A stretch of 64,000 bases of DNA from Massilia sp. Leaf139 (GTDB lineage: Bacteria > Pseudomonadota > Gammaproteobacteria > Burkholderiales > Burkholderiaceae_D), in assembly GCF_001424165.1 (NCBI RefSeq), contig NZ_LMOJ01000026.1, positions 62,001 through 126,000 on the forward strand. Direction: 5' to 3'. The translations under genes were made by a program, and so were the position numbers. Below, one piece after another: positions 21,653 through 62,373 of the stretch. Position 1 is the first letter of the stretch. The number at the start of each line of letters is the position of its first letter. The notes beneath the pieces are model-generated. The model was not told the origin of the DNA and ran no database searches. It worked only from the letters and a program-made list of their open reading frames with translations.

Positions 21653-22011
21653 GGGGGCGACCTGGTTTCGACGTGGGTTGCAAAGCAGCGCAGGGCATAC
21701 CGAGGACTGGTTACCTCGTAAATACATCCAGAAATCAATAACTGCAAACGATAACTCGTACGCACTCGCAGCTTAATTGCTGCTAGCTCTACACTACCTC
21801 GCCTCTGGGGTGGGCCGCAAGGCAAGTAGAGTCATTTACAGAGGCTAGGACTCAACCGGGTTACTTGGTTGCTTCCGAAATTTAAGGTAACTCGCTGGTA
21901 CGCAGGGTGCACATCCCCGTCGTGCCGGTCAAATTAAATGATAGTGCTAAGTATGTAGAACTGTCTGTAGAGTGCTTGCGGACGCGGGTTCGATTCCCGC
22001 CGCCTCCACCA
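21653..22011 (+). ncRNA. ssrA: Transfer-messenger RNA (tmRNA)
   Basis: A 359-nt one-piece tmRNA for ribosome rescue. The 5' end GGGGGCGACCTGGTTTCGAC pairs with CGCCTCC before ACCA at the 3' end. The tag-reading frame is at 21744-21776 and encodes ANDNSYALAA with a TAA stop, the typical betaproteobacterial tag with the AA degron. The T-arm GCGGGTTCGATTCCCGC is near 21984-22000. Small open frames over it (GGGNRTRV-type peptides) are artefacts. Confidence 0.97.
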
Positions 22012-22069: not shown

Positions 22070-22240
22070 TGCGTTCCGGCGTCGGGAATCGAATCCGCGG
22101 ACGGCACGGACGCGGGGCGAGCGGGGGTTTCGAGCGGCGCAGCGGCGAGCCCGCGAGCGACGTTGCGCCTCCGGGCGCAACGGCTCTCCGATTCGCCTGA
22201 CTTAGGAAAATCGCGCAGCGATTTTCTGCAGTGGTGCTCG
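22070..22240. other. Non-coding segment with an inverted T-arm remnant and hairpins
   Basis: On the minus strand, 22079-22097 reads GCGGATTCGATTCCCGACG, nearly identical to the tmRNA T-arm (GCGGGTTCGATTCCCGCCG) but inverted relative to ssrA. Further on are two short hairpins: TTGCGCCTCCGGGCGCAA and GAAAATCGCGCAGCGATTTTC. No coding gene fits. It looks like residue of an attachment-site event or a dispersed repeat at the tmRNA hotspot; this is inference. Confidence 0.4.
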
Positions 22241-22248
22241 CGCACCCG

Positions 22249-25176
22249 TCACACCACCGGCACCCCCACCGCCCGCAAGGCCTCCGCCACCCGCGCCGCC
22301 GCGATCGCATGATTTGCCCGCTTCGTCTCCCCCGCGAAATGCAGCCCGAACACCGGCATCTCCTTCCCGGCCCCGCTGGCCAAAATCGGCGAGCCCGAAG
22401 CCCCGCCGAAAGTGGTCGCATCATGCCCGAACACCCACTCCCGCGTATCGCGCTTGTCCGTCGCCATGGCCTGGGTAAAGCGTCCTGGCGCCAGGCGCTT
22501 GAAGCCGAACAGGTTGCCGAACAGCGTGGCCGTCACGAAGGCCCAGTCGACGCTGGCATTGTCCTCGGACGACCGTGGGCGGCCGGGAAAGCCGATGGTA
22601 TAGACCGAGCTCACGCCGCCGGCGGCGAAGGCGGGCATGGCGTTGACCGTCACCGGGTGTTCGGGCAGCACGCTGTCGTCATCGATCGGTTCGATTCGCA
22701 GCACCGCGGCGTCCAGGAAGCCGAAACCGCGCCCGAAGCCGGCCGGTAGCCGCGCCTCGACCACCTTGAAGCGGTTGCGCGCCAGCCCGCCGGCCTCGCC
22801 GACGAAATCGATCTCCAGCCCGCCGTGGATGGTGAGCGTGGAATCCTGGCGCGTCATCGGGATGCCCAGCTTGGAGCGGGCGTCGTCGAGCACGTGGTAG
22901 TTGGTGAGGACGAAGCGCTGGTCGCGGTCGACCAGCGAACCCGTGCCAAGGAAGTTCGATGCATGGCCGCCCTTTGGCTGGATGCGTCCGATCGCGCGCG
23001 CCGTCTTCCGGATCTGGTCGCGCGCGTCCCGTATCTGCTCTTCCCAGATGCCATAGAAGGGATGGCTTGCGGGCGGCAGGCCGTCGTCGAGCAGGAAGCT
23101 GGGGCGCGAGCCGTCGGCGACGATGATCGCTTCCAGCGCGCCCAGCTCGTCGGTGTCGACGTCGTGCGACGGGTCGCGATCCATCACCAGCAGCTTGCGC
23201 AGGGCGCGGTCGCCGTGCAGGTACAGGGTTTCCAGCGCCTGGCGGAAGGCCTGCGGATCGCCTCGCTCGCGCTCGGGCACTGCGCGGGCGATCTGGTCGA
23301 TCTGCGCCAGCATGGTGTCGGGATCGGGCAGCGGTGCGTCGGGCGGCAGACTGCTCTCCTCCAGCAGCATGCTCTCCAGGCCGCCACGTTCGGCGGCGGG
23401 TGCCAAGGGCAGCTGGCGCGCGGCGAGGATGCGGCGCCTTGCCTGCACCTCGGCCGGCGCGGCCGGCGGCGCTTGCAGCTTGGGCGGCAAGCGCAGTGCC
23501 GGCGCCGCCACGCGCATGGGCTCGGGCGTGGATGTGGGCGCGGGTTCGGCGATGGCCGTTGCCGTCGCCGGCGCACCTGCCGCCGGCGCCAAGGCGGCAG
23601 CCGGCGCCAGGCCCAGTGCCGCGGCCAGCGCCCGCGACGGCGCGTCGTCGGGTGCCTGGGCGCTTTCGAGCAGGGTGCCGCCGCTGCGCACGCGTCCGCG
23701 CAGCACCAGCAGGCTGGCCTCGGCGCCATGGCGCACCCAGTCGATCTGCGCCTCGGGCGGCGCGAACGCGCTCTCGAGGGCGAAGCCGCGGATCGAGCGA
23801 TCCAGCGGACGCCGGCACTCGGCGATCTCCGGCCCCTCGGTGTCGCGCCCGGCATCGAAGCCGGCCTGCAGCAGGGCCAGCGCATCGACGATGCCCGGCC
23901 CCATGCTGTAGACGTCCCAGCCGTCCTGCGGCGTCCGGGCCGTGGCTTGCAGCAGGCGCCGGAACAGGTGCTGCACCGAGGTGCGCTGGGCACGCGCCGC
24001 GGCGACCACGTCGGCGCGGCCGTGGAAGGCGAGCCAGCAGGCGGCCACGCCGGCGGTCAGGGCGACGGCGAAACTGGTGCCCTGCCCCTGGCCGGCCGCT
24101 CCGTCCTGGGCAGTGGCGCGGTAGACGTTCTGCGCCGGCGCCGCGATATCGACGTCGGGCCCGCGGCAGCTGCCGCGCCAGCGCAGGTCGTCGTAGTCGG
24201 TGCCGGCCACAGCGATGCAGTCGTCGAAGCGCGCCGGCCAGACGACGAAGTCGATGCAGTTGCCGGCCGCGGCCAGCACGATGACGTCGGCCGCGACGGC
24301 GCGCTCCACCGCCCGCTGCAGGGCGAACGAATAGATACCGCCGAGCGACATGGTGATCACGTCGGCGCCCTCGTCCACCGCGCGGTCGATGGCCTGCGCC
24401 ACCGTCGTCTGCGACAGGCGCATCACGCTGTGGATGGCGCGGATCGGCAGGTGGCGCGCGCGCGGCGCCGAACCGTGCACCACGCCGGGCGCGCCGCTGA
24501 CGACGACGCTGGCGGTGCCGGTGCCGTGCCCGCGCGTGCCGGGATAATCCATGGGGTCGGTGGCGTCGTTCGGGCGCGCCGGATCCATCAGGTTGATGCC
24601 GCCGCCGGAAAGCACGTCGCGCAGCTCCGGATGGCCGGTCACGCCGGTGTCGGGCTGGGCGATGACGATGCCTTCGCCGCGCGCGGGCCGCGCCATGCTG
24701 TCGGCGTAGTCCCAGGCTTCGCGCGCGCGGATGCGCTTCAAGGCCCAGTCCTTCTCCGCTTCGATGCGCGGTTCCGGATCGGCCCAGCAGCCGGGCATCA
24801 GCTGCGCCGCCGATTCCTCGATATCGGGCGCGACCGGGGCGCCGGGGTCGGCCGGCATCACGGCATGGAAGATTTCCGGTTCCGCGAGCGGCAGCCCGAG
24901 TTCGCTCTCCAAGGCGCGTGCGGCATCAAAAGCCCAGGCCGAGTCGACGATCGTCCGTCCCGGAAAGCTGAGCACCAGGTCGCCCGGCGCCAGCGCCGAC
25001 AGCGGCGCGACCGTGCACGGCAGCGGCGCCAGCGTGGCCGCGATCCTGGCCTTCAGCTCGGCCAGGTTGCGATCCTCGGGCACCGGCAGATAGAACCGCG
25101 CCGGCATGTCTGGCGCCGCGGCGGTCGCCGCTTCGACAGCCATGCGGGCGGACCTCGTCACCACCTGCTGGTTCAT
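22249..25176 (-). CDS. Double protease: subtilisin (S8) domain plus trypsin-like (S1) domain
   Basis: 975 residues. The N-terminal half is an S8 protease with catalytic D176 (QPDTGV), H217 (RGHGTGT), oxyanion N306 (AAGN) and S368 (GTSFAV). A Pro/Ala-rich linker (~520-600) ends in RGGLESMLLEES. The C-terminal third is a trypsin/V8-like protease with H761 (TNYHVLD), D822 (LDAAVLRI) and S927 (GGASGSP). All six catalytic residues are present. There is no recognisable signal peptide, so it is either cytoplasmic or exported by an unknown route. AGGAG precedes the ATG, and the upstream gene stops 12 bp before it. It is the last gene of a three-gene cassette whose proteins share GGLE motifs. Substrates are unknown. 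Confidence 0.85.
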   Translation of the reverse strand: MNQQVVTRSARMAVEAATAAAPDMPARFYLPVPEDRNLAELKARIAATLAPLPCTVAPLSALAPGDLVLSFPGRTIVDSAWAFDAARALESELGLPLAEPEIFHAVMPADPGAPVAPDIEESAAQLMPGCWADPEPRIEAEKDWALKRIRAREAWDYADSMARPARGEGIVIAQPDTGVTGHPELRDVLSGGGINLMDPARPNDATDPMDYPGTRGHGTGTASVVVSGAPGVVHGSAPRARHLPIRAIHSVMRLSQTTVAQAIDRAVDEGADVITMSLGGIYSFALQRAVERAVAADVIVLAAAGNCIDFVVWPARFDDCIAVAGTDYDDLRWRGSCRGPDVDIAAPAQNVYRATAQDGAAGQGQGTSFAVALTAGVAACWLAFHGRADVVAAARAQRTSVQHLFRRLLQATARTPQDGWDVYSMGPGIVDALALLQAGFDAGRDTEGPEIAECRRPLDRSIRGFALESAFAPPEAQIDWVRHGAEASLLVLRGRVRSGGTLLESAQAPDDAPSRALAAALGLAPAAALAPAAGAPATATAIAEPAPTSTPEPMRVAAPALRLPPKLQAPPAAPAEVQARRRILAARQLPLAPAAERGGLESMLLEESSLPPDAPLPDPDTMLAQIDQIARAVPERERGDPQAFRQALETLYLHGDRALRKLLVMDRDPSHDVDTDELGALEAIIVADGSRPSFLLDDGLPPASHPFYGIWEEQIRDARDQIRKTARAIGRIQPKGGHASNFLGTGSLVDRDQRFVLTNYHVLDDARSKLGIPMTRQDSTLTIHGGLEIDFVGEAGGLARNRFKVVEARLPAGFGRGFGFLDAAVLRIEPIDDDSVLPEHPVTVNAMPAFAAGGVSSVYTIGFPGRPRSSEDNASVDWAFVTATLFGNLFGFKRLAPGRFTQAMATDKRDTREWVFGHDATTFGGASGSPILASGAGKEMPVFGLHFAGETKRANHAIAAARVAEALRAVGVPVV

Positions 25177-25188
25177 GCGCTTCTCCTT

Positions 25189-27213
25189 CTAGTCCGTAAA
25201 GACCCGCAAGCCGAGCAAACCGTCCATGGCCGGCGAATGGATGCCGTCGGCCCAGCCGAGCACGCTGGCCTGGCGCCTGACGAGGGCGGCGCGGGTAATC
25301 GGGCCGACCAGCCGCGAATTATCCGGCGCCAGGCCAAGGGCCGCCTGCAGCGCCGCCACGCGCTCGCCTTTGGAGCCGTGCCGCAGGCGGCGCAGCGAGG
25401 CCGGATCGGTGCCCGCGGTGCGCACGCGGGTCGCTGCCGCTGCGTCGAGTCCGGTCAGCAGCATCAGTGAAAACAGCTCGCCGTGATGCGCGCGATCCAG
25501 CCCCGAGGCGGCGCGGAAATCGCGCCAGACGCCGGAATGGCTGCCGCCGGCAAAGCGGCCCGGCAGCGTCAGGCAACCGGCCGACGAGAAGCCCTCGGAT
25601 AACTGCCCCGGATGGATGTTGTCGGCGGGCGTGGCGACCAGGAAGGGATCGAAGCGGTCGTACTGCAGATCGGCGATCGAGCGCAGCACCAGCACCCGCG
25701 AGGCGCCCGTGGCGCTGTTCGAGAGCCGCAGCACGGTCGGAATCTCGCCCGCCTGCCCTGCCCTGTGCGTGCCGACCGCATAGGTGTAGCAGCCGGTCGG
25801 CAGCATGTTGCCGGTCAGGTTGGCGGGCGCCGTGCCCTGGCTGGCCAGCGTGAAGCAGCGGAACACGTAATGGGCATTCGGCACGGTCGATGCCGGGAAG
25901 GCCGACAGGCGCCGCCGGTCGCGGTCGTAGGCGCCCATCACGCAGCGGAAATTGCGGTGATCCGGGCGCTGGTCGGTGACGACGATGGACGCCGCGTCGA
26001 CCTGCGCGCCGCCGGGCAGCGCCGCGCCGCGCAGTGCGAACAGCAGCCGGCCGGACTGGGTGAAGAACGCATTCGCTTCGATCAGCAGGTCGAGGTCGGC
26101 CGGGGTCAGCTCGAAGCTGCTGAAGGCGGCAGTGCGGTCGAGGTGGCGGTAGTCGGGATGCTCGTCGTCGCGCGGGTTCCAGTGCACATTGGCGGCGCTG
26201 AGCGACCCCGATTCGAGTCCGTCGTCGGGCTGGTAAGGCGGCGCGGGCGGCTGGTCTTCCTGCTCGTCGCGCTCGTCCGTTTCATCACTCGGTTCGACCG
26301 GCAGATCCTCGTGCTGTTCCGCGCTGCCGGGCGCACCTTCGAGCACGCTGCCTTCGAGCCCGCCCTCCTGCTGCTCGCGGTTCAGGCTTTCCAGCGTGCC
26401 GCGCTCCTGCAAGCCGCTTTCGAACAGCACGGCCTCGTCCTCGCGACGCCGGGCCAGGCTCGATTCGCTGCCCCAGATCCGTTTCATCGCGCGCAGCAGG
26501 CCGGGCACGCGCGCCAGTTCCCGCGGCTCGCCCGAGCGCACCGCCGCGCCGATGGCGCGCATTTCCGCGAAGCGCTCGCCCTCGGCGCGGAAGGCGGCGC
26601 CGCGGTTGAACAGCAGGCTGAGGAGCGCGGCGCGGCAGTGCGGATGCAGCGCCGCCACCTCGGGCAGCGCCCGGTACAGCTGCCCCAGCAAGCGCGGCAG
26701 CTTGGCGCCCTCGAACTGTTCGATCGCGACCGGCCAGGGCACGACGATGTCGGCCAGGCGCCGCACCAGTTCCTTGGCGCGCCCGACTTTCAGCGCGCGG
26801 TCGGGTGCGACGGTTTTAAAACCGACCACGCCGCCCAGGCGTTCGAGATCGGCCGCCCCGAGCCGGCCGCCCCACTCCTCGAGGAAGGGGCCGCGCTCGT
26901 GGTAGCCGAGGTCGAAGCCGCAGCCGATGGTGATCCCGGAGGCGTAGCCGGGCCAGATCGGCCTGCCCTTGATCACCCCCTCGTAATAGGATCGGCCGCC
27001 GGTTTCCCAGCGCACGATCAGGGTGTAGCCCGCGTTGGAGATCGCGTCGCGCCAGTCGGCCGGGGCCTGGGCGTTCTCAAGCCCGCCAGACTCAAGGACA
27101 GGCGGCGGCAAGGGAGGAGCCGGATCTTCGCGGTAGGCCGCCGATTCCTCGACCATCGCATCGGTGATACCGGCCAGCAGCCGGCACGACAGTACATCGC
27201 TTGGGGTTTGCAT
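25189..27213 (-). CDS. Muramidase-like / L,D-transpeptidase-like fusion protein
   Basis: 674 residues. Residues ~53-250 resemble lysozyme-like muramidases of the GH24/pesticin type (RWETGG with candidate acid E70; ASGITIGCGFDLGY at 91-104). An acidic, repeat-bearing linker (~262-340) carries GGLE and LES motifs. Residues ~370-590 end in an L,D-transpeptidase-like centre, IHPG (H534) followed by FSSAGCLTL (C547). Residues ~605-665 resemble a peptidoglycan-binding domain (LRHGSKGERVAALQAALGL). No signal peptide is seen. The domain calls are from motifs only; cell-wall cutting is inferred. It is the middle gene of the cassette, with gaps of 36 and 12 bp. Confidence 0.65.
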   Translation of the reverse strand: MQTPSDVLSCRLLAGITDAMVEESAAYREDPAPPLPPPVLESGGLENAQAPADWRDAISNAGYTLIVRWETGGRSYYEGVIKGRPIWPGYASGITIGCGFDLGYHERGPFLEEWGGRLGAADLERLGGVVGFKTVAPDRALKVGRAKELVRRLADIVVPWPVAIEQFEGAKLPRLLGQLYRALPEVAALHPHCRAALLSLLFNRGAAFRAEGERFAEMRAIGAAVRSGEPRELARVPGLLRAMKRIWGSESSLARRREDEAVLFESGLQERGTLESLNREQQEGGLEGSVLEGAPGSAEQHEDLPVEPSDETDERDEQEDQPPAPPYQPDDGLESGSLSAANVHWNPRDDEHPDYRHLDRTAAFSSFELTPADLDLLIEANAFFTQSGRLLFALRGAALPGGAQVDAASIVVTDQRPDHRNFRCVMGAYDRDRRRLSAFPASTVPNAHYVFRCFTLASQGTAPANLTGNMLPTGCYTYAVGTHRAGQAGEIPTVLRLSNSATGASRVLVLRSIADLQYDRFDPFLVATPADNIHPGQLSEGFSSAGCLTLPGRFAGGSHSGVWRDFRAASGLDRAHHGELFSLMLLTGLDAAAATRVRTAGTDPASLRRLRHGSKGERVAALQAALGLAPDNSRLVGPITRAALVRRQASVLGWADGIHSPAMDGLLGLRVFTD

Positions 27214-27249
27214 GATCCAGTCTCCGCGCGTGGTGGTTGGGAGGCCGGC

Positions 27250-28062
27250 TCATGCAGGCAAGGCCAGCGGCGGCAGCGTGCGCAGATAGGCTTTCTGGAA
27301 AGCGCCGACGCGTGTCTGGATCTCGGGATGGAGCTGCGCCAACATGTCGGGATCGATGGTGAGCGTCGTCGACAGTTTGCGCAGCGTCGCCTCGGCCAGC
27401 CTGACCTTGACGAACAAGACCTGCGTCAGCTTCGACGTGGCTTCCAGCGCGAAGGCCATCATGGCCAGCGTGCAGCCGGCGCCCGTGTCTTCCTGGGCCA
27501 GCGCGATCTGGAAGCGCCCTGCTTTGGCGTGTTGCTGATCCCGGTTGAACAGGGTAATCCAGCCATTGTCGCTGCCCAGGCCTTTCAAGGCATTGAGTGT
27601 CGCCTTGACGACGGCCAGCGCGGCCGGCGCCGGGCCCAGCAGCACTGCTGCGACGGACAGGATCGCTTCGTGCGCCTCGACGCCGCGTCCGCTCGCCTCG
27701 TGCACGCTGAAACCCCGGTTTTCGATGACCCAGCCCAGGGTCGCGAGCACGTCGAAATAGGCTTTGTACCAGTCGTCGATCCGCTCGTGATCGGGGACGC
27801 TCTGGTTGGCGACCAGCTGCGCCAGCAGCAGCGAATCGGCGATCGCACGGCGCCGCGCCGGATCGACTCCCTTCAGGAAGGAGGTGACCCCGGATCCGAC
27901 CGCCACCGCCTGATCCTGGCCGGGATCGAGAAAGCCGGTAGTGGCCGATTCTTCGAAGGATTCGAGGCCGCCTTCCAATATCGACTCGCTCGGCAGTTCG
28001 ACCTGACGAATGAAGTCGAGCGCGCGCGGCAGCGCCTCGGATTTTGCATCGGGCGTATCCAT
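27250..28062 (-). CDS. Unknown helical protein, first gene of the protease/muramidase cassette
   Basis: 270 residues; I do not recognise the family. It starts MDTPDAKSEALPR, with AAGGAG exactly 6 nt before the ATG. Residues 26-39 hold the motif ESILEGGLESFEES shared with both downstream proteins. The rest is mostly helical with a hydrophobic stretch at ~134-163 (AILSVAAVLLGPAPAALAVV) that could insert in a membrane or form a core. No signal peptide, cysteine cluster or catalytic motif is visible. It could be an immunity/regulatory partner or a structural component. Confidence 0.7.
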   Translation of the reverse strand: MDTPDAKSEALPRALDFIRQVELPSESILEGGLESFEESATTGFLDPGQDQAVAVGSGVTSFLKGVDPARRRAIADSLLLAQLVANQSVPDHERIDDWYKAYFDVLATLGWVIENRGFSVHEASGRGVEAHEAILSVAAVLLGPAPAALAVVKATLNALKGLGSDNGWITLFNRDQQHAKAGRFQIALAQEDTGAGCTLAMMAFALEATSKLTQVLFVKVRLAEATLRKLSTTLTIDPDMLAQLHPEIQTRVGAFQKAYLRTLPPLALPA

Positions 28063-61291: not shown

Positions 61292-62373
61292 AAGGCAATA
61301 TTCTCACGCCCGATGGCTGGATCCACGGCGAACTGCACTTTGGTGCGCGCATCGAGGCCATCGACGGCCAGCCGGCCGATCCCGAGGCCAACGGCGACGT
61401 CTTCATCCTGCCCGGCTTCATCGACGTCCACGTGCACGGCGGCGCCGGGCGCGACATGATGGAAGGCGGCGACGCGCCCCACGTGATCGCTGCCCTGCAC
61501 GCCAAGCACGGCACCACCAGCCTGCTGGCCACGACCATGACGGCGCCCCCGGAAGACATCGAACGGGCATTGACTGCCATCGGCGCGGCCTGCAAGGAGC
61601 GCGGCCGCAATGAAGCGCGTATCCTCGGCGTGCACCTGGAAGGCCCCTACATCAACGCCGCCAAGCTGGGCGCCCAGCCGCCCTTCGCCAAGGAAGCGAC
61701 GCTGGCCGAGATCGAAGCCTATGAGGCCCTGGCGCCGATGCGCGTGATCACGGTCGCGCCCGAGATCCACGGCCACCTGGAACTGGTGCGCCTGCTGGCC
61801 GACCAGGGCGTGCGCGTGCAGATCGGCCACACCAGCGGCTCCTACGAAGACGGCGTGGCCGCGCTCGCGCATGGCGCGGCCGGCTTCACCCACCTGTTCA
61901 ATGCCATGCCGGGCCTGCACCACCGCGAGCCGGGCATGGTGGGCGCAGCGCTGGCGCATGCGCAGTACGCCGAGATCATTCCGGATCTGCTGCACGTGCA
62001 TCCGGGCGCGATCAAGGTCGCCTTGCGTTCGATTCCCCACCTGTTCTGCGTGACCGATTCCACGGCGGCCGCCGGCATGCCCGACGGCGAATACATGCTG
62101 GGACGCCAGGTCGTCCACAAATGCATGGGCGGCGTGCGCCTGGCCGACGGCACCCTGGCCGGCTCGACCCTCACCATGGACGGCGCGCTGCGCAACCTGG
62201 TCAAGATCGGCCTGCCGCTGGCGGAAGCTTCGCGCCGCGTCTCGACCAATGCCGCCGACTACCTCGGCGAAACGCAGCGCGGCCGCCTCGCGCCCGGCTG
62301 CCATGCCGACTTCGTCGTGCTCGACCGCGACCTCAACATCAACGCCGTGTATATCGAAGGAGAAGCGCTGTGA
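61288..62373 (+). CDS. nagA: N-acetylglucosamine-6-phosphate deacetylase
   Basis: 361-residue amidohydrolase. HVHGG is the metal motif in the barrel, HLEGPYINAAKLGAQ carries the metal glutamate, and GHTSGSYED, THLFNAMPGLHHREPG and VTDSTAAAG are NagA signatures. It releases acetate from GlcNAc-6-P to give GlcN-6-P. It is coupled on both sides by short overlaps. Confidence 0.95.
   Translation: MKGNILTPDGWIHGELHFGARIEAIDGQPADPEANGDVFILPGFIDVHVHGGAGRDMMEGGDAPHVIAALHAKHGTTSLLATTMTAPPEDIERALTAIGAACKERGRNEARILGVHLEGPYINAAKLGAQPPFAKEATLAEIEAYEALAPMRVITVAPEIHGHLELVRLLADQGVRVQIGHTSGSYEDGVAALAHGAAGFTHLFNAMPGLHHREPGMVGAALAHAQYAEIIPDLLHVHPGAIKVALRSIPHLFCVTDSTAAAGMPDGEYMLGRQVVHKCMGGVRLADGTLAGSTLTMDGALRNLVKIGLPLAEASRRVSTNAADYLGETQRGRLAPGCHADFVVLDRDLNINAVYIEGEAL

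Follow-up and report, generated by a model that had tools for sequence, protein, structure and literature searches.

Introduction

Trypsin-like and S8 peptidases occur, together with NucA nucleases, EAD1 domains and STAND ATPases, in the conflict systems described by Kaur et al. (eLife 2020, PMC7159879). Lysozyme- and papain-like peptidoglycan effectors form part of the same description, and a proteolytic cascade is proposed. In Hachiman and AVAST, a nuclease is made as a proenzyme and becomes active through a trypsin-like partner protease (Tuck et al. 2025, PMC12799240). The trypsin-type protease activity of LypABC is required for cell lysis (Banks et al. 2026, PMC13236601). For glutamyl endopeptidases, His213 and Ser/Thr190 are mandatory elements, and a streptomycete enzyme processes itself after Glu (PMC5508998). 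Note that these four papers are cited, here and below, for excerpts of their text. Here, we describe a three-gene cassette of Massilia sp. Leaf139, located in positions 62,001 to 126,000 of contig NZ_LMOJ01000026.1 (assembly GCF_001424165.1). We refer to this whole stretch of 64,000 nucleotides as the window, and all coordinates are window positions. The genes encode a double protease (P1), a muramidase fusion (P2) and a small protein (P3), and all three products carry the motif GGLE in linkers. With moderate confidence, and from sequence comparison, we regard GGLE/S as a processing site for the cassette's own glutamate-specific protease.

The cassette and its closest described relatives

The cassette consists of three open reading frames (ORFs), all on the minus strand, at 22249-25176 (P1), 25189-27213 (P2) and 27250-28062 or 28080 (P3). 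The proteins have 975, 674 and 270 or 276 amino acids (aa), respectively. An earlier first-pass annotation, made from the letters of the window, gave gaps of 36 and 12 bp between the genes, and the ORF coordinates bear this out. The features of the cassette are listed below. Labels such as L105, for loci, and G396, for genomes, are our own.

22249..25176, minus strand: P1, double protease, 975 aa; Peptidase_S8 (167-413) and glutamyl-endopeptidase-like trypsin (~698-975)
22252..23085, minus strand: GluC-like trypsin domain of P1 (698-975), from Pfam Trypsin_2 and a PDB profile search
23125..23136, minus strand: LEAI, pro-segment immediately before the trypsin fold; Glu invariant in 12 aligned proteins
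23371..23385, minus strand: GGLES of P1 (598-602), in the linker between the protease domains; motif location
23857..24756, minus strand: S8 domain (subtilisin-like) of P1, residues 141-440 with borders set by us; Pfam PF00082, 1.2e-27, at 167-413
25189..27213, minus strand: P2, muramidase fusion, 674 aa; tblastn to phage peptidoglycan-binding protein/endolysin genes, and a full-length relative at L105
25192..25401, minus strand: C-terminal end of P2 (605-674), possibly peptidoglycan-binding; PHROG endolysin match, weak (E 0.47), and by eye
25414..26178, minus strand: C-terminal module of P2 (346-600), without a family match
26206..26220, minus strand: GLESG of P2 (332-336), start of the C-terminal module; GLES also in the L105 relative
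26350..26364, minus strand: GGLEG of P2 (284-288), in the acidic linker that follows the muramidase; motif location
26410..27057, minus strand: T4-lysozyme/pesticin-like muramidase domain of P2 (53-268); RWETGG and GITIGCGFD motifs, tblastn
27073..27087, minus strand: GGLEN of P2 (43-47), N-terminal to the muramidase domain; motif location
27250..28062, minus strand: P3, 270 aa (276 with an upstream GTG); N-terminal peptide ALDFIRQVELP, linker, core
27958..27972, minus strand: GGLES of P3 (37-41, 276-aa numbering), in the linker that follows the N-terminal peptide; motif location

Judged by its domains, the cassette appears best filed as a variant of the NucA-trypsin(-S8) 'System 3' conflict systems. 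As in System 3, trypsin-like and S8 peptidases are coupled (Pfam PF13365, E 1.5e-8, and PF00082, both in P1), and there is a peptidoglycan-attacking effector, the muramidase of P2. Unlike System 3, the cassette has no NucA/Endonuclease_NS domain (no Pfam match in P1-P3), although this is present in the operon of a relative, G396. The cassette also has no EAD1 or STAND gene, and the P3 family has no Pfam entry. Relatives of P1 are found in System-3-like operons: at L076, L078 and L079, with nuclease- or ATPase-type partners (judged by eye for L078), and at L085, with an annotated AAA ATPase. The excerpts of Kaur et al. name neither a cleavage motif nor specificity for Glu (PMC7159879).

In HamMAB and AVAST, the effector is off until a trypsin-like partner cuts set sites in disordered insertions (PMC12799240), and the cassette may work alike. 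However, their effector is an MBL nuclease and HamM is cut after Ile (PMC12799240), whereas the cassette has a muramidase and P3, and a predicted cut after Glu. No MBL-fold nuclease was seen in P2 or P3, neither of which has a Pfam match. CARD-NLR systems and LypABC share cytoplasmic trypsin-type proteases whose activity lysis requires (PMC13236601). They differ from the cassette since Pfam finds no NLR-type ATPase domain in P1-P3, and no CARD was recognised, CARD folds not having been searched by structure. Conversely, the domains described for LypABC include no peptidoglycan hydrolase (PMC13236601). The muramidase domain of P2 resembles pesticin C-terminal and T4-type muramidases, and phage endolysins, but lies between acidic linkers with GLE sites and is joined to a further module. 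A literature search on a GLE cleavage code in such systems gave no report among the matches listed, subscription papers being largely outside its coverage.

GGLE is concentrated in linkers of the three proteins

Every motif context quoted in the first-pass annotation was found again. GGLE starts at residue 37 of P3 (SILEGGLESFEES, 276-aa numbering), at residues 43 (LESGGLENAQ) and 284 (QQEGGLEGS) of P2, and at residue 598 of P1 (ERGGLESMLLEES). These four copies are in linkers: one on either side of the muramidase, one in the stretch that joins the two proteases, and one following the N-terminal peptide of P3. A fifth copy, at P1 785 (IHGGLEIDF), is within the trypsin fold and is no linker copy; the corresponding residues of relatives are WLEIDF, GLEIDF or GLEVDF. 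Related sites in P2 are GLES at 332 (QPDDGLESGS) and TLES at 273, and LES is found in P1 also at 466 and 502.

The background sample comprised the window and 17 genome stretches, about 365 kb of 5.39 Mb. ORFs of at least 100 aa were called with a crude GC-frame script, and those with second-position GC above 0.62 were discarded. The first-pass annotation had named equal frequency in random proteins of this genome as grounds for giving up the idea. This is not what the sample contains. For GGLE, a motif chosen post hoc after inspection of the sequences, the count is 5 in the cassette (1,925 aa) and 3 in the remaining 102,296 aa; at the latter rate, 0.056 copies would be expected in the cassette, and the enrichment is about 90-fold. 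For LES, the counts are 8 and 24 (0.45 expected). A less biased measure is the number of tetrapeptides common to P1, P2 and P3. There are four (GGLE, GLES, EESA and ARRR), and at least four were shared in 76 of 5,000 random length-matched triplets, some perhaps inflated, as random segments may overlap each other. At the DNA level, the pattern GGLExxEE (with Leu as CTN only) has a single match genome-wide, the P3 copy.

The copies use unlike codons: GGC GGC CTG GAG AGC, GGC GGG CTT GAG AAC, GGC GGG CTC GAA GGC and GGC GGC CTC GAA TCC. This does not suggest recent copies of one DNA segment, and recent duplication of linker DNA was rejected.

Since GG precedes the site in the four linker copies, leader-type double-glycine signals, cut by a C39 peptidase or ABC exporter, were considered. 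We dropped this idea, which is barely credible, because GG varies in relatives (GVGLEA, EGLES, NGLESV) while Glu stays. Furthermore, the copies are internal, and none of the three proteins has a C39 or ABC domain. The export signal proposed in the first-pass annotation fares no better: besides the internal position of the copies, no signal peptide was seen by eye, and the three proteins have no transporter domain.

The trypsin half of P1 resembles glutamyl endopeptidases

P1 carries the S8 motifs QPDTGV, GHGT and GTSFA, and the trypsin motifs TNYHV, GGASGS and GLHF. A profile of the trypsin half and seven relatives, compared with PDB, ranked glutamyl endopeptidases top (6tya, 6u1b, 4jcn and 1qy6; E 2e-14 to 5e-14). 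In two profile alignments, the His of GLHF was aligned with the GluC His, and the Thr of ATT.GG.SGS with the GluC Thr. An alignment of 12 proteins, including P1, has His213 in all 12 and Thr190 in 11, P1 among the latter; this numbering was transferred by us, Thr190 being counted back from the catalytic Ser. P1 therefore has both residues, His213 and Ser/Thr190, by which the S1 pocket of glutamyl endopeptidases is recognised. Glutamyl endopeptidases (V8/SspA, GluC) are presumably family S1B. P1 resembles them in profile kinship, His213, Thr190 and the Gly216 pattern. It differs in having no signal peptide by eye, and in that the trypsin domain follows an S8 protease and a helical-looking pro-segment in one chain.

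In all 12 aligned proteins, the pro-segment that precedes the fold contains [LVIMT]E[AS], with the Glu invariant. It resembles the linker sites in kind, and this Glu is a possible activation site.

Separately, the PADLOC model PDLC03010, named 'nacht', scored 357 bits with the trypsin half of P1, where Pfam finds no NACHT. Despite its name, the model seems to describe the protease family of P1.

Glu sites recur in relatives of the protease

In the genomes of relatives, ORFs were also called with the GC-frame script. Related double proteases have the linker sites GGSLES, GVGLEA, GGGVES, GGTTES and STLESA. A lone trypsin relative has GGGGLES, a trypsin-nuclease protein has EREGGLEALM, and a neighbouring muramidase has EGMETLEPYLEG. 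The expression G[GST]?[LMV]E[SAGN] was fixed after these first relatives had been seen and before new loci were fetched. It was present in 8 of 11 new trypsin ORFs (9 matches in 9,340 aa), whereas among 90 control ORFs from these loci 6 had it (6 matches in 28,642 aa). Shuffling within the new trypsin ORFs gave a mean of 3.06 matches, and 9 were reached in 6 of 1,000 shuffles. Matches ahead of the fold were found in 7 of 10 new ORFs with a recognisable core. Taking old and new proteins together, a set that includes the discovery proteins, the figure is 16 of 25, and shuffles expect 1.41. A second order-wide search, around G692, yielded one new ORF, G692N, without the expression.

With a widened expression, the site is 75-84 residues before the pro-segment Glu in 6 of the 13 proteins that have both landmarks. 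The distance is 26-46 residues in G540N, G459N, L107 and L108; L105 (160) and L111 (115) are outliers, and in G396N the site is the pro-segment.

These counts bear on whether the copies are functionless and merely reflect the composition of disordered linkers (acidic, rich in Gly and Ser) that have a common origin and were shuffled with domains. The linker copies do sit in low-complexity, mostly acidic stretches, and 16 rather than all 25 relatives have the expression. Even so, we consider this quite unlikely. Both shuffles fall well short of the matches seen, codons vary between copies, and GLES persists in a linker of the L105 relative of P2 that is otherwise 40% identical.

An uncut docking or assembly tag, gathering P1, P2, P3 and their relatives on one partner, would also explain why like sites turn up in several products of one operon and in their relatives. 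Indeed, EAD1 domains are shared adaptors in such systems (PMC7159879). Yet the conserved core is just Leu/Val-Glu-small residue, enough for a GluC site and little for docking. In addition, P2 alone holds several copies, the neighbouring protease profiles to the Glu-specific branch, and no candidate tag-binding domain was noticed. Docking is therefore an unlikely explanation. The first-pass annotation's suggestion of a common processing site, in a self-processing lytic system, is strengthened by the GluC-branch profile and by recurrence of Glu sites in the linkers of relatives; cleavage itself stays a prediction.

Peptidoglycan enzymes are repeatedly found near this protease branch, at L105, G692, G396 and in S. 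fredii. The G692 neighbour matches Hydrolase_2 (7e-17), with CHAP below the cut-off, and for G396 the match is Pesticin, below the cut-off. The S. fredii neighbour has Amidase_3 and M15, and the S. fredii trypsin is GluC-like by eye.

Other arrangements were observed in the same branch. At L042:6685-9576 and L043:6697-9657, both in the window's genus, a trypsin with the pro-segment VEAIVL and GLHF is fused to look-alikes, by eye, of a GDSL hydrolase and an M15-type peptidase. In S. fredii, such domains are spread over two adjoining genes. The cluster at L079:7525-18344 has a trypsin-Endonuclease_NS protein, a pesticin-like muramidase, the GGGGLES trypsin, a further trypsin-like protein, an AAA_16-like ATPase (below the cut-off) and, on the opposite strand, a gene that is CHAP/NlpC-like by eye.

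P2 and a distant pair of P2 and P1 relatives

Residues 58-276 of P2 are 36.8% identical to a Bradyrhizobium phage gene annotated as a peptidoglycan-binding protein, and residues 58-270 are 33.0% identical to an annotated pesticin-like muramidase gene (both tblastn). P2 has no Pfam match. Its relative in G396 matches PF16754 below the cut-off, and a profile of P2 with its L105 relative found nothing meaningful in PDB. In the C-terminal module, NIHPGQ...SSAGCL resembles an L,D-transpeptidase active site and may be one.

At L105, in genome G1252, an ORF of 681 aa is related to P2 over the full length (60% identity), and the next gene encodes a relative of P1. Identity is 141/216 (65%) and 161/255 (63%) in the two modules, and 27/68 in the middle linker. 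GLES is at the same place in this diverged linker, and LE is at the N-terminal site. The genes that follow encode a caspase-domain protein and another subtilase. P3 was not found in the G1252 genome.

Kinship of P2 with phage endolysins and pesticin-like muramidases, and several hydrolases side by side, would suit an antibacterial weapon, with P2 and P3 delivered into rivals and the proteases acting as effectors or maturation enzymes. We think this highly improbable. By eye, no secretion, immunity or delivery gene is among the neighbours, which were not family-scanned, and relatives sit with ATPase/STAND, CHAT, caspase and TIR genes, as in intracellular conflict systems.

P3 belongs to a family of small proteins often encoded beside hydrolases

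P3 has no match in Pfam, NCBIfam or PADLOC at E up to 1, and a single match in PHROG (E 0.12). A profile of the family (7 rows) found just one PDB chain (E 1.6), and the rows matched scattered weak Pfam families (best E 0.02). There was no gasdermin match to P3 by Pfam or PDB profile. The most hydrophobic window of P3, ILSVAAVLLGPAPAALAVV, has a mean of 2.26, which is near transmembrane level and no proof. Relatives are on 38 rhizobial plasmid records (4 opened) and at 6 loci of other genomes; three further relatives are in two genomes of the class. The aligned family members share an N-terminal peptide ending [LI]P, a variable linker, and a core with the pattern LF...TQVLF. The S. meliloti paralogs P0012 and P0013 diverge more.

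On Sinorhizobium plasmids, the gene kinds follow one another as in the cassette: a P3-family gene, one for a peptidoglycan enzyme and one for a trypsin-type protease, the latter two being different genes from P2 and P1. In S. fredii, for example, a GDSL-amidase-M15 protein is followed by a trypsin-type protease. P3 relatives neighbour CHAT, GH108 lysozyme and TIR genes in R. leguminosarum. Elsewhere, the neighbours are lipase-S8 (L038), TPR-S-S8 (L039) and lipase-CHAT-TPR-S (L036 and L041) proteins. Besides the window, 13 loci were tallied (L004-L007, L036-L041 and L082-L084), as follows.

Protease or CHAT gene at most two genes from P3: L004, L005, L007 (broken protease gene), L036 (other strand), L038, L039, L040 (partner assigned by likeness to L039, without a scan of its own), L041
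No protease or CHAT gene within two genes: L006, L037, L082, L083/L084 (P3 near the contig end)

Since 8 of the 13 loci have such a gene, we conclude that the P3 family is often the small partner of large hydrolase effectors. The first-pass annotation expected the three genes to co-occur elsewhere. This holds for the order of gene kinds on Sinorhizobium plasmids. It does not hold for the exact genes, which, among the loci examined, are together only in the window: P2 and P1 occur without P3 in one distant genome, and P3 occurs near other proteases or CHAT.

The linker of P3 is Glu-rich, with GGLES, in the window, where the partner is GluC-like, and contains SELERAE in S. fredii, where the trypsin has the same His and Thr by our reading. 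Beside CHAT, the linkers contain RRPATRRRGG (L036), PRSARG (L041) and TRGAETRG (L005). Neither pattern is clear beside a subtilase (L038 and L039/L040), and the linker at L037, with no recognised partner, has Arg too. Across about 7 independent cases, taken post hoc and with rough script-set borders that overran for the window P3 and L005, linker type may track partner type; the pattern is suggestive.

Two other P3 loci were noted in S. meliloti. At L007:15333-18040, on plasmid p_1, the trypsin gene is broken and annotated as two parts, and related P3 genes are longer than the one here. At L006:11989-13657, also on a plasmid, P3 paralogs form a tandem pair with no annotated protease adjoining.

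Points against a Glu cleavage site

Several findings weigh against GGLE/S as a site for a Glu-specific P1. Specificity for Glu is not certain from sequence because His213 and Thr190 are present in Gln-specific 3C proteases also (for His213, PMC5508998), and the HamA trypsin cuts after Ile. The expression itself is not rare: the background sample of the same genome has 20 matches in 102,296 aa, in 17 of 273 ORFs. Two of the nine matches in new trypsin ORFs are misplaced, being inside (L106, residue 346) or behind (L112, residue 712) the trypsin domain. The expression is missing ahead of the fold in 9 of 25 proteins, including L042, one of two same-genus relatives, and some of the 16 matches are the pro-segment itself. 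In the 11 later-fetched ORFs, a script found the pro-segment Glu clearly in 5 and doubtfully in 1; this script overlooked several proteins, such as G459, Smel and G396T, whose landmarks the alignment displays. At L105, the GGLEG of P2 is not retained in place, and the P1 relative has linker GLEA and TLES off the aligned position. Among P3 linkers, GGLE is confined to the window (0 of 14 relatives examined). Finally, no sensor was recognised within the cassette.

Genomic setting

The cassette ends 237 bp from ssrA, and the features on this side are as follows.

21653..22011, plus strand: ssrA (tmRNA), adjoining the cassette
22078..22099, strand not assigned: inverted copy of the tmRNA 3' end, 22 nt, 91%, just behind ssrA

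The inverted copy may be an integration trace. We searched for ssrA in 31 genomes of the genus and fetched its neighbourhood for 11 relatives, one of which, L120, ends at a contig end. DNA as far as about 22229 is conserved in several relatives and divergence starts there; none of the 11 aligns with the window past about 22232 on the cassette side. Hence, the place beside ssrA is probably an insertion hot spot. Searches of genomes of the family found one other match for P3, which was weak (294 genomes), one for P2, which was short (195 genomes), and, for P1, matches to the trypsin half in two of 101 genomes, among the matches listed. Because such matches are rare, we conclude that the cassette is accessory DNA. 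It is also modular, since the P2 and P1 pair, and P3, each recur apart from the other parts.

Elsewhere in the same genome, at about 329477-334735 of contig C1 (L130:8478-13736, minus strand), three genes in a row form a CARD-NLR/System-3-like operon. They encode a 383-aa GluC-like EAD1-trypsin (...SSGSPVF...ALHF), a 371-aa EAD1-AAA_16 protein (AAA_16 match below the cut-off) and a 1,060-aa ATPase (NPHP3_N). This operon might provide a sensor for the cassette.

Proposed mechanism and meaning

In the mechanism we propose, P1 would be an intracellular protease pair, a subtilase with a V8/GluC-like trypsin domain. A trigger, perceived either by P1 or by some partner elsewhere, would render the GluC-like domain active, and this would cut after the Glu of G-G-L-E, before Ser, Asn or Gly. 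Cutting its own linker, P1 would separate the two proteases. Cuts in the linkers of P2 would free the muramidase and the second module, and a cut in the N-terminal linker of P3 would remove about 40 residues. As a result, the cell would be expected to attack its own wall and to lyse or die abortively, most likely as a defence against phage. The role of the cassette is thus likely to be protease-triggered lysis or abortive defence.

A wider reading is tentative, and we would not yet bet on it. Any protein that gained a [G]-[LV]-E-[SA] linker might join the GluC-like immune protease switch, the linker serving as a plug-in code comparable with caspase sites in animals. P3 might define a new class of killer proteins that proteases activate and that perhaps act on membranes, with an N-terminal linker matched to the partner protease: Glu-rich beside GluC-type proteases and Arg-containing beside CHAT proteins. 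With the freed muramidase, P3 might then form a holin-endolysin-like pair set off by proteolysis.

For trypsin/S8/STAND systems, a cascade has been proposed with, in the excerpts cited, no named cutting site (PMC7159879). If the GLE site is cut, it would be a readable code by which sequence alone would reveal the substrates and effectors of such proteases. Specificity, activation and the order of events would be directly testable. If an immune protease does free a muramidase that linkers keep inactive, cell-wall lysis would join the death programmes that proteolysis sets off.

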